A stretch of 40,358 bases of DNA from an uncultured bacterium (GTDB taxonomy: Bacteria > Cyanobacteriota > Vampirovibrionia > Gastranaerophilales > Gastranaerophilaceae). Every line of letters starts with the position of its first letter. Position 1 is the first letter of the stretch. Of the stretch, positions 1-21,789 are shown in pieces. Position numbers and translations under genes: made by a program. The DNA lies in the NCBI GenBank assembly GCA_902794035.1, contig CADBFN010000017.1:1-40358 (forward strand), in the 5' to 3' direction. The notes under the pieces were generated by a model, which was given only the letters and a program-made list of their open reading frames with translations, was not told where the DNA came from and did not search any database.

Positions 1-489
1 TGAAGGATCGCTTGGGGATGAGATTGAACCATAATCCATATCATACTGAGCCTGAGCAGAGATTGCCGCCTGATTTAAGGTAGATAATTCTTTTTTAAAC
101 TGAGTAGAAAACTTTTTACTGTTTGAATTTTGGATTAGTGTAGGGATTGTTAATGCAGCCACTACACCCACTATGCCAATGGTTATCATTATTTCCGCCA
201 AAGTGAAGGCACATTTTTTTAATCTGTCATTATGAGGAGCAAAGCGACGTAATAATCCCATTGGTTCAATGGCGTTCGCAATTGATTTGATGGGATTGTT
301 ACGAAAATCAGAGATTTTTTCACAATGGCAGTTTAAGAATTCAGGATCACAGACAAAATTTGATAATTCAGGAGATTCTTCGCTACGCTCAGAATGACGG
401 GGTTCTAAACCACTGAAATGCTTGCTATGAGAGGCTTTTACCCCCCCCCCAACGAGGTTGAAACGCTTGCTATTACTGCTTTTTGACAT
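1..489 (-). CDS. Pilin-like protein (type IV/II pseudopilin class), 3' part outside the window
   Basis: The frame is open from ATG 489 to the window edge (163 codons, no stop). Residues 95 onward read FTLAEIMITIGIVGVVAA, the hydrophobic N-terminal helix of class III-methylated pilins, with Glu at +5. The cleavage site is KKCA|F, so Ala replaces the usual Gly at -1. The following segment (STQFKKELSTLNQAA, then AQAQYDMDY) closely matches the pilin-like gene at 20379. The odd part is the roughly 94-residue leader instead of the usual 6 to 20: it is translated from dispersed repeat DNA (228-330 and 371-400) and contains a G10 tract. A purine-rich ribosome site, AGAGAGGA, lies about 9 nt before ATG 489. 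An in-frame ATG at 261 would give a leader of about 18 residues but has no ribosome site. Function (pilus or pseudopilus subunit) is inferred from the N-terminus only. Confidence 0.75.
   Translation of the reverse strand, partial: MSKSSNSKRFNLVGGGVKASHSKHFSGLEPRHSERSEESPELSNFVCDPEFLNCHCEKISDFRNNPIKSIANAIEPMGLLRRFAPHNDRLKKCAFTLAEIMITIGIVGVVAALTIPTLIQNSNSKKFSTQFKKELSTLNQAAISAQAQYDMDYGSISSPSDPS
228..330. repeat. Degenerate palindromic repeat, GTCATTGCGAG family
   Basis: The two ends are imperfect inverted copies. The left end reads GTCATTATGAGGAG followed by AAGCGACG and AATAATCCC. The right end, read on the minus strand, is GCCATTGTGAAAA ... CGTAACAATCCC. It resembles the better-preserved copies at 19632, 21277, 21664 and 21703. 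It lies inside the pilin-like gene and keeps that reading frame open. Confidence 0.6.
371..400. repeat. Dispersed repeat half-unit (minus strand CGTCATTCTGAGCG)
   Basis: On the minus strand this reads CGTCATTCTGAGCG then TAGCGAAGAATCTCC, a second type of dispersed repeat, also translated into the pilin-like leader. It lies about 30 bp from the G10 tract and about 40 bp from the end of the first repeat. Confidence 0.55.
431..440. repeat. Homopolymer tract C10 (G10 on the coding strand)
   Basis: Ten consecutive C on plus, read as GGG GGG GGG G at codons 14-17 of the minus-strand pilin-like gene. It is the only G/C run of this length I noticed in the window, in strongly AT-rich DNA. It lies between two near-identical ATAGCAAGC(G/A)TTTCA copies on the minus strand. 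Gain or loss of one base would put the pilin out of frame. Confidence 0.9.
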
Positions 490-19484: not shown

Positions 19485-19713
19485 GTAGGTTGGGTGAAAC
19501 CCAATAATAAATTTATAGTGCAATTATAGGGACAAAAAGAGCAAATGAGCGGATATTTTTGTTACCAAAACTGGACTTTCCGGACATTTATACTCACTCA
19601 ATTTCCGACCTTAATAAATCGGCAAAAGCTAGATTGCTTCGCCTTTACAGGCTCGCAATGACATTTTGAACTTCCGAGCAAATGTCCTGAAAAAAGGTAT
19701 TCACCCAACCTAC
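19485..19713. repeat. Nested inverted-repeat element (MITE-like), about 229 bp
   Basis: Perfect 14-nt terminal inverted repeats GTAGGTTGGGTGAA (19485-19498) and TTCACCCAACCTAC (19700-19713). Inside is a second pair, GGACATTT (19582-19589) and AAATGTCC (19680-19687), and a short palindromic unit at 19632-19664. It has no coding capacity. The nesting suggests a foldable, non-autonomous element. Confidence 0.65.
19632..19664. repeat. GTCATTGCGAG-family repeat unit
   Basis: Reads GATTGCTTCGCC then TTTACAGG then CTCGCAATGACA. Same family as the copies flanking the GIY-YIG gene. Confidence 0.6.
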
Positions 19714-21211: not shown

Positions 21212-21231
21212 ATTTAAAACAGCTGGATTAT

Positions 21232-21271
21232 CCTCTCGAAAAACAATACTTGATTGTTTTTCTCGGCAGAG
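21232..21271. repeat. 40-nt structured repeat, copy B
   Basis: Flank CCTCTC, left arm GAAAAACAAT, loop ACTTG, right arm ATTGTTTTTC, flank TCGGCAGAG. The 10-bp stem is perfect. Same length and flanks as copy A (19918-19957), but the stem sequence differs in paired fashion. It lies 5 bp before the palindrome at 21277. Confidence 0.65.
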
Positions 21272-21276
21272 TGCTA

Positions 21277-21310
21277 TCACTCGCAATGACATAATGCATG
21301 TCGTTGCGAG
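21277..21310. repeat. Palindromic repeat flanking the GIY-YIG gene, left copy
   Basis: 34 nt identical to 21721-21754. It contains CTCGCAATGACAT, AATGC, ATGTCGTTGCGAG, a 13-bp stem with one G-T pair. The repeat family extends to about 21340 (GATTGACCGACGAAGCAACC). Confidence 0.85.
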
Positions 21311-21322
21311 AAGGTCAAAGGA

Positions 21323-21351
21323 TTGACCGACGAAGCAACCCAGCCTATAAT
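21323..21351 (+). promoter_or_regulatory. Promoter of the GIY-YIG gene, leaderless geometry
   Basis: TTGACC (21323-21328), a 17-nt spacer, TATAAT (21346-21351), then exactly 6 nt to ATG 21358. The -35 lies inside the repeat extension. Confidence 0.65.
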
Positions 21352-21357
21352 ACGATT

Positions 21358-21654
21358 ATGAGCGTATCAAATCAATATTATGTTTATATTTTATTCAGTA
21401 AAAAGAATGGTACTCTATATGTTGGTGTAACTTCCGACCTTGCCAACAGAGTTTGGCAACACAAAAATAAATTAGTAAAAGGATTTACTCATAAATATAG
21501 TGTTGATAAATTGGGTTATTATGAAGTATCTAATGATATTAATTCTGCAATAGCAAGAGAAAAACAACTAAAAGGTGGTAGTCGTAAAGCAAAACTTGAT
21601 TTGATAGAAATACACAATCCTAATTGGAATGATTTGTACTATGAAATAATTTAA
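21358..21654 (+). CDS. GIY-YIG nuclease family protein, between palindromic repeats
   Basis: A 98-residue single-domain GIY-YIG protein of the small UvrC-like (COG2827/YhbQ) type. YYVYILFSKKNGTLYVGVTS carries the YVY...YVG core, followed by LANRVWQHKN (conserved Arg and His), KYSVDKLGYYE, AREKQLKGGSRKAKLDLIE (catalytic Glu region) and NPNWNDLYYE. I chose ATG 21358 because a -35/-10 pair stands 6 nt before it; the frame could extend to ATG 21298, but those 20 codons are repeat DNA. It is flanked by identical 34-nt palindromes (21277, 21721), suggesting it belongs to a mobile repeat unit. Cellular role unknown. Confidence 0.88.
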   Translation: MSVSNQYYVYILFSKKNGTLYVGVTSDLANRVWQHKNKLVKGFTHKYSVDKLGYYEVSNDINSAIAREKQLKGGSRKAKLDLIEIHNPNWNDLYYEII

Positions 21655-21663
21655 AATAGCTGG

Positions 21664-21690
21664 ATTGCTTCGCTTCGCTCGCAATGACAT
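21664..21690. repeat. GTCATTGCGAG-family repeat unit, right side, inner
   Basis: GGATTGCTTCGCTTCG then CTCGCAATGACATG, directly after the GIY-YIG stop. It is preceded by TAGCTGG, comparable to CAGCTGGATT on the left side (21220). Confidence 0.65.
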
Positions 21691-21720
21691 GATTTGATAG
21701 CCGGATTACTTCGCTTCGCT

Positions 21721-21754
21721 TCACTCGCAATGACATAATGCATGTCGTTGCGAG
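21721..21754. repeat. Palindromic repeat flanking the GIY-YIG gene, right copy
   Basis: 34 nt identical to 21277-21310. Preceded by GCCGGATTACTTCGCTTCGC (21702-21721), another family unit. The rsmH promoter lies about 40 bp further on. Confidence 0.85.
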
Positions 21755-21789
21755 CGATAGCACCCTGCCTCACAATAATATGTTGTTCA

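Follow-up and report, generated by a model that had tools for sequence, protein, structure and literature searches.

The stretch of DNA analyzed here (hereafter the window, 40,358 nucleotides from an uncultured bacterium of the family Gastranaerophilaceae) contains a small gene for a GIY-YIG nuclease enclosed by repeated palindromes, and the question raised by this locus is whether gene and repeats together form a mobile unit. The basic arrangement had been proposed from the sequence alone and holds on closer analysis: a 98-residue GIY-YIG protein is encoded between two 34-nt stretches (21277-21310 and 21721-21754) that are identical at 34/34 positions, and GIY-YIG is the sole Pfam match of the gene product (2.9e-16). 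Each stretch had been described as a 13-bp palindrome; indeed, the 34-nt unit folded as DNA forms a 13-bp stem (z -6.05), and 0/200 shuffles are equally stable. This palindrome is now better described as the junction of two C/TGTC-tagged REPs lying head to head, rather than as a single repeat, and it is the inner inverted pair 21299-21343 / 21660-21689 that encloses the gene, with its heads outward and its tails toward the gene (Table 1). The further adjoining units of the repeat family announced in the original prediction are present at 21660-21689 and 21701-21735. Of its two degenerate distant relatives, both are real, at 226-258 (+) and about 19629-19663 (-), the latter being nearly intact and not degenerate.

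Table 1. Features of the nuclease locus and of the dispersed repeats, numbered as in the window.
Feature	Position	Strand	Remarks
Dispersed REP relative	226..258	+	
Lone dispersed REP, nearly intact	about 19629..19663	-	upstream of pilin gene
Outer left REP, head half TGTCATTGCGAG	21278..21291	-	facing REP-b head to head; within the identical 34-mer
Inner left REP (REP-b)	21299..21343	+	TGTC head, CCAG tail toward gene; z -2.83
Sigma-70-like promoter	21323..21351	+	-35 inside REP-b; 11/12 matches
GIY-YIG nuclease P0001, 98 aa	21358..21654	+	ATG 21358 to stop 21654; Pfam GIY-YIG
Inner right REP (REP-c), TGTCATTGCGAGCGAAGCGAAGCAATCCAG	21660..21689	-	tail toward gene
Second right REP (REP-d)	21701..21735	-	
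Outer right REP half (REP-e)	21743..21769	+	head to head with REP-d

The repeats of the window carry C/TGTC at their start and CCA(G) at their end. The stem of REP-b is GTTGC...GCAAC with a nested hairpin inside; the predicted folds of REP-c alone and of REP-d are no more stable than those of shuffled sequences (z 0.64 and 1.61, respectively). The motif GTCATTGCGAG, allowing at most one mismatch, occurs six times in the window against 0.32 expected, and the genome to which the window belongs holds 16 exact copies and none of the reversed pattern. It had also been noticed that the -35 box of the gene is supplied by the repeat: TTGACC (21323-21328) does fall inside the REP hairpin and is followed, after a 17-nt spacer, by TATAAT (21346-21351), in a promoter scan that returned 4 sites in total vs 3.9 in shuffles, i.e. 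no excess. As transcription is expected to begin about at the ATG, the nuclease message is likely leaderless.

These repeats fit the CGTC-tagged REPs, which Di Nocera 2013 (PMC3733652) describes as having a CGTC/TGTC head, a stem starting with AT and a CCA tail, and as forming dimers; the same paper counts dRS3 of Neisseria and RPE-4 and RPE-6 of Rickettsia among them. The YGTC head, the AT-starting stem, the CCA tail and the dispersed copies are shared with the repeats analyzed here, as are hosts such as Micavibrio, Bradyrhizobium, Rickettsia and Azospirillum lipoferum among others. On the other hand, that survey found the CGTC repeats without association to a transposase gene ("apparently lack a dedicated transposase"), whereas a GIY-YIG gene is the associated enzyme here, and the present set of repeats is wider, including TCA-tailed and GAACTTG-loop types. 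The term GIY-YIG has 0 occurrences in PMC3733652. A C/TGTC head and a CCA-like tail around a hairpin are found in the window type and in many others, several types having TCA-like tails. The stem of 8-9 bp and loop of 4-5 of the superfamily agree with the Nitrosomonadales unit (8 bp, loop 4); in REP-b and REP-c of the window, by contrast, the outer stem measures 5 bp and the inner part is longer.

The nuclease belongs to the GIY-YIG superfamily by its conserved catalytic residues and fold, as judged from Pfam, AlphaFold2 and comparison with solved folds. Residues Y10, Y21, R31, E68 and N87, which we take to be the catalytic positions of GIY-YIG enzymes, are intact in 141 of the 143 rows aligned. 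The AlphaFold2 model, built from 40 sequences, reaches a pLDDT of 94; 1zg2 (UPF0213) is the sole solved fold below E 0.001, followed by weak matches to the structure-specific nuclease Slx1 (E 0.03 and above), and sequence comparison places 1zg2 and 1ywl first. The score of the window nuclease against TIGR01453 is 22.4, for a cut-off of 56.05. The UPF0213/YhbQ-type small GIY-YIG proteins (1zg2, 1ywl) share fold and size with the window nuclease but are about 30% identical to it, and in the same genomes REPs are seldom found beside their genes. The nuclease is intact and under purifying selection: dN/dS lies between 0.04 and 0.17 in the 10 of 12 pairs for which it was computable, two of these ten having dS above 1.

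Close homologs of the window nuclease, referred to as A-type (cut at E 1e-15 in the relatives of the window and at 3e-20 in the family of a Lysobacter antibioticus record discussed below), have a patchy presence, with a homolog in 41 of 98 relatives and none in 57. Their flanks were scored for a GTC hairpin lying no more than 250 bp from the gene, using the same code for nuclease and controls. The relatives provided 73 A-type loci, among which the 68 copies with at least 200 bp on both sides were scored (L044, the same gene pair as L021, is left out of the 68). A flanking hairpin was detected on at least one side of 63/68 copies and on both sides of 35/68. For the approximately 30%-identical GIY-YIG paralog (UPF0213-like) in REP-rich genomes, the corresponding counts are 1/12 and 0/12 (12 of 14 loci used), and for rsmH of the window's genus 7/29 and 0/29. 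A separate set of paralogs, sharing up to four loci with the former, gave a hairpin in 1/11, counted from 17 loci of which 6 were not recovered by tblastn. In the relatives, hairpins number 4.8 per kb up to 250 bp from the gene and 0.74 per kb beyond 500 bp, the background of the detector being 0.65 per kb in mononucleotide-shuffled sequence. At the relatives' loci L019, L034, L048, L068 and L085 no hairpin was found by the detector; at L068 the reading frame runs into an apparent REP, and L034 and L048 have short REP-like pieces common to their flanks.

The association extends well beyond the phylum of the window. A scan of genomes with 20 A-type proteins retrieved at least 573 relatives, against 40 in a scan of viral contigs. 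The best 80 of the at least 573, chosen by score and not at random, were analyzed further; those labelled outside the window's phylum span 18 named phyla. Full flanks were available for 76 of the 80: at least one side carries a hairpin in 73 of these, and both sides do in 61 (74 and 63, respectively, under an alternative definition of the flank), the exceptions by the detector on neither side including L123 and L157, and hairpin density is 6.8 per kb near the gene and 1.4 far from it. In 45 of 59 loci the nearest hairpins point their tails toward the gene on both sides, and the left and right stems agree at 6.3 of 7 positions (4.9 when permuted). Finally, the 16 plasmid copies counted (from 33 plasmid records) divide into 9 flanked by REPs on both sides, 2 flanked on a single side and 5 on neither by the detector, the latter being L188 (a single loose match), L192, L193, L195 and L197. 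That the association between this nuclease subfamily and REPs is real can be regarded as practically certain.

The original prediction would have been contradicted by repeats equally common in genomes devoid of the gene, and they are not. The median number of GTCATTGCGAG copies is 20 in the 41 genomes with an A-type gene and 1 in the 57 without (p 4.5e-9); within the window's genus, five or more copies are present in 18/22 genomes with A-type vs 1/24 without; and GTCATTCWGAG and TGTCAYNCNGAACTTG are likewise commoner in genomes with A-type (p 2e-6 and 8e-5, respectively). A second clade, the Lysobacter family, which is unrelated to that of the window and carries a separate repeat, agrees: the full hairpin pattern is present in 35/40 genomes with A-type vs 19/79 without, with medians over these 119 genomes of 11 and 0 (p 2e-11). 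All these p values are too small because genomes within one clade are not independent. Exceptions exist in both clades. Of the 57 relatives without the nuclease, 19 hold at least 20 repeats of the three counted types, and a search of these 19 genomes with the PF01541 profile found no A-type gene; the matches were mainly the UPF0213-like paralog and UvrC, with a few weak or long ones, and one genome had none. Conversely, two relatives with the nuclease (G051 and G087) have fewer than 10 repeats, and in the Lysobacter family 5/40 nuclease genomes are without the pattern and 7/79 nuclease-less ones hold five or more.

Moreover, nuclease and repeat are matched in type. In 34 of 38 genomes the REP type that flanks the gene is the commoner of the two types counted (p 1.3e-6): GCGAG in 18/19 genomes with GCGAG-type flanks, and CCYGC in 16/19 with CCYGC-type flanks. 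This test comprised 49 of the best 80 genomes, 11 of which have neither flank type and stand outside the 34/38. Among A-type genomes of the relatives, flank type goes with a greater number of that repeat for two types (p 0.007 and 0.002), the WGAG type giving no significant result among nuclease-bearing relatives (p 0.14). A tree of the nuclease, built from 147 of 153 rows after removal by hand of six that were duplicate, partial, broken or divergent, requires 23 changes of REP type over 128 labelled rows, against a mean of 68.8 for shuffled labels; the labels derive from our own regular expressions, with 'other' counted as a type, and many forks of the tree are unresolved because the alignment has few columns. 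When each nuclease is compared with its nearest relative in a different phylum, the REP type is the same in 65/119 cases, where 30 are expected and the maximum of 5000 permutations is 52; once the window's phylum is left out, the agreement weakens to 26/51 (14.2 expected, at most 27 in 5000 permutations). For these comparisons L104-L107, L173 and L179 were assigned to the window's phylum by hand. In the genome of the window itself, the three A-type genes are accompanied by three distinct REP families, one per gene (16, 30 and 12 copies by three patterns), G029 likewise has three nucleases with three REP types, and 34 of 44 pairs of copies within one genome differ in REP type. A cognate element of nuclease and REP is what we consider very probable.

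The ends of this element can be approached through miniature forms. Two genomes of the Lysobacter family provided 18 short inverted REP pairs (a selection from a longer list for that family) with spacers of 36-121 bp, and 2 gene-bearing pairs with spacers of 321 and 322 bp. Short and gene-bearing pairs have the hairpin and the next inward bases in common, the inner termini of the short pairs being CCA-GYG on the left in 17/18 and CRC-TGG on the right in 18/18; many short pairs match the gene-bearing form further inward, e.g. CCAGTGACTTTG...CAAAGTCACTGG, giving a terminal inverted repeat of roughly 30-36 bp. Over 137 elements the spacers are bimodal, 71 being shorter than 150 bp and 66 of 250 bp or longer with none between, although the longer peak arises partly by choice, because most loci were picked for the gene. 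Outside GTC, complementarity of the two sides reaches 0.85 at the Y and drops to 0.43 one base further on (0.46 and 0.32 when permuted), and this fall places the outer end of the element at YGTC. None of the 137 elements showed a target duplication of 5 bp or more; 3-bp matches of the flanks number 5 vs 1.9 expected, the maximum of 300 permutations being 6. We do not propose palindromic target sites, since the flanks outside the Y are only weakly complementary (0.43 vs 0.32 at -2, lower beyond).

We further compared sites with and without the element. In the window's genus, rsmH was found in 44 of 46 genomes, and at the 29 other rsmH loci the nuclease gene is present in 0/29 of the upstream stretches covered; conservation of the gene here in strains that lack the repeat was not seen. 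G040 has the same order of pilin, terminator and rsmH with neither gene nor repeat, and carries an 86%-identical nuclease elsewhere in its genome; the alignment of the two copies extends from 77 bp upstream to 43 bp downstream of the gene and stops there, and the same element is thus located at unrelated sites in sister species. What is left at the rsmH sites of G002 and G004 we read as a decayed REP. Sites without the element, of the kind that the original prediction had proposed to look for, were found in this genus and also in Azospirillum and Sphingobium. In Azospirillum lipoferum 4B, repeat, gene and repeat lie between sufB and sufC; at 11 other Azospirillum places, among the matches listed, both sides are present and the middle is absent, and sufB and sufC adjoin in all three of those places that were read. 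The insertion points in Azospirillum and Shinella cannot be placed exactly because the flanking intergenic DNA has diverged. In Sphingobium the element lies between fnrL and a response regulator, and seven plasmids match across it, two of these copies having been read (L194, and L199 with a broken gene). At the same site TomTYG64 and, imperfectly, TomTYG74 hold a single palindrome that combines the left half of the left REP with the right half of the right REP, and TomTYG72, TomTYG65 and S. herbicidovorans are without such a REP, the first two with another short palindrome. The palindrome of TomTYG64 and TomTYG74 could represent either excision between the REPs or an unoccupied target. Finally, G067 carries two 93%-identical copies (L059 and L061; dS 0.20) on two contigs at unrelated sites, their likeness ending about 250 bp upstream and 42 bp downstream of the gene; a mixture of strains is possible in this case because the genome is a draft with 7% contamination.

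The original prediction of a repeat-nuclease-repeat unit resembling REP/RAYT systems, with a GIY-YIG enzyme instead, is supported by the flank counts and by co-occurrence, the association being wider than this locus. With the observed association, inverted architecture, shared termini, cognate pairing and presence or absence at sites, we consider it probable that the locus represents a single-gene mobile element, formed by an inverted pair of YGTC-headed REPs around their cognate GIY-YIG nuclease and accompanied by non-autonomous REPs. Mobility is suggested by the presence and absence at given sites and by the same element at unrelated sites, and the nuclease would probably be what spreads the repeats. 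No covalent intermediate is formed when GIY-YIG enzymes hydrolyse DNA, and movement should therefore depend on host repair; a homing-like, repair-dependent route appears more likely than strand transfer by the nuclease. The enzyme would recognise the YGTC hairpin, either single-stranded or extruded as a cruciform, and cut at its base. Healing of the break by the host through joining of the REP halves would result in excision, and repair or recombination by the host, copying from another REP-bearing copy, might lead to gain at REP-like or hairpin-forming sites. The dispersed REPs and the short inverted pairs would be non-autonomous relatives on which the nuclease acts in trans, and by the same cut in pairs that lack the gene REPs would be able to spread.

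The main rival, which partly overlaps with this explanation, is homing into pre-existing REPs: the repeats would be older and moved otherwise, and a free-standing homing endonuclease would insert into REP palindromes, splitting them. The gene-less palindrome of TomTYG64 (imperfectly that of TomTYG74) does resemble an unoccupied homing site, and REPs are reported to be targets of insertion sequences (Tobes and Pareja 2006). However, the gene-less miniature inverted pairs have their inner termini in common with the gene-bearing form, and the abundance of repeats goes with the nuclease, something that pure homing into repeats already in place does not call for; we hold this rival to be unlikely. 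Somewhat less probable still is a host repair nuclease that processes REP cruciforms or stalled forks and is kept beside its substrates, moving none of them. The purifying selection on the nuclease and the position of Slx1, next among solved folds after 1zg2 although weak (E 0.03 and above), would agree with such a role, and small UvrC-like COG2827 genes have been proposed as repair enzymes (PMC1839093; Caulobacter crescentus has three COG2827 genes, one of them with an SOS box). Against this rival, the patchy presence, the several copies per genome with different REP families, the same copy at unrelated sites and the sites without the nuclease look mobile, not housekeeping. The idea that REPs crowd intergenic gaps and that the nuclease sits in one of them by chance, against which a single locus alone would be insufficient, is refuted by the controls, the enrichment being found beside this nuclease subfamily and not beside the approximately 30%-identical paralog or rsmH, and its probability is negligible.

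Returning to the single-gene mobile element, we compared it with known systems, and it differs in a defining respect from each kind considered. By the descriptions in PMC6006769, PMC8266576 and PMC3116915, it shares with the RAYT/TnpA-REP systems (REPtrons) a nuclease gene bracketed by its matching REP family, short inverted REP pairs as miniature forms (REPINs), several enzymes per genome with different REP families, and a patchy distribution. In contrast, RAYTs are HUH tyrosine (Y1) transposases and their REPs bear a GTAG tag, whereas GIY-YIG is the sole Pfam match of the gene here and the tag is CGTC/TGTC (YGTC); moreover, REPtrons do not seem to transpose as a unit, according to PMC6006769, whereas the gene-bearing unit is found here at different sites. 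GIY-YIG homing endonucleases have the catalytic domain in common with the present nuclease and, probably, a spread through host repair, but here no intron or intein was noticed, there is little beyond the catalytic domain, and the element has its own terminal inverted repeats and several copies per genome. Like the MITEs of DDE insertion sequences, the short elements share terminal inverted repeats with a gene-bearing form, but no DDE enzyme is present and the target duplications of 5 bp or more are lacking in the 137 elements.

Among the matches listed, no link between GIY-YIG and REPs was found in titles and abstract openings of the open literature (subscription papers and preprints lying outside this search), nor was there any match in the open literature for GIY-YIG together with REP-associated. 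CGTC REPs and the GIY-YIG domain are known; their pairing and the element appear to be new. On balance we favor, with some reserve, an unrecognised class of autonomous elements present in many phyla, having an approximately 98-aa GIY-YIG nuclease as sole protein and YGTC REPs as ends, spreading by nuclease cutting and host repair with no transposase, and giving rise to the CGTC REPs, with Neisseria dRS3 and some Rickettsia palindromic elements among them. REPs belong to the common bacterial repeats, and what spreads those of the CGTC kind was not settled by the 2013 survey; with a dedicated nuclease this spread becomes directly testable, and REP biology gains a second, unrelated enzyme class. 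If true, this would be a bacterial mobile element that does without its own transposase, recombinase and reverse transcriptase. The element may account for many genes annotated merely as "GIY-YIG nuclease family protein", and could explain the spread of widespread "orphan" DNA repeats.

Several individual loci deserve mention. Nuclease frames often extend into the downstream REP (L068, L041, L078, L076 and others), giving tails like IDPETSSG, and that of L068 ends in ILRYAQND, a peptide that is familiar from many annotated genomes and presumably corresponds to repeats read as protein. Two equal-scoring A-type genes 552 bp apart with repeats around them (L021/L044, G063:C1:123866-124702) apparently form a tandem array of the element. 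The nearest nuclease among named records (83%) is L104, titled uncultured Acinetobacter, which is probably a mislabelled Gastranaerophilales genome. A Rickettsia endosymbiont genome (G114) contains 240 copies of GTCATTGCGAG and 334 of GTCATTCCYGC, with an adjoining A-type nuclease (L134). In a Neisseria gonorrhoeae chromosome filed as a plasmid (L186), an A-type nuclease lies among CGTCATTCCCGC hairpins, which we take to be the dRS3 repeats of Neisseria. On a plasmid of Planktothrix agardhii (L185), nuclease and REPs are located between an MmeI-like gene and drmA of a DISARM locus, and a related plasmid differs from it at this place.
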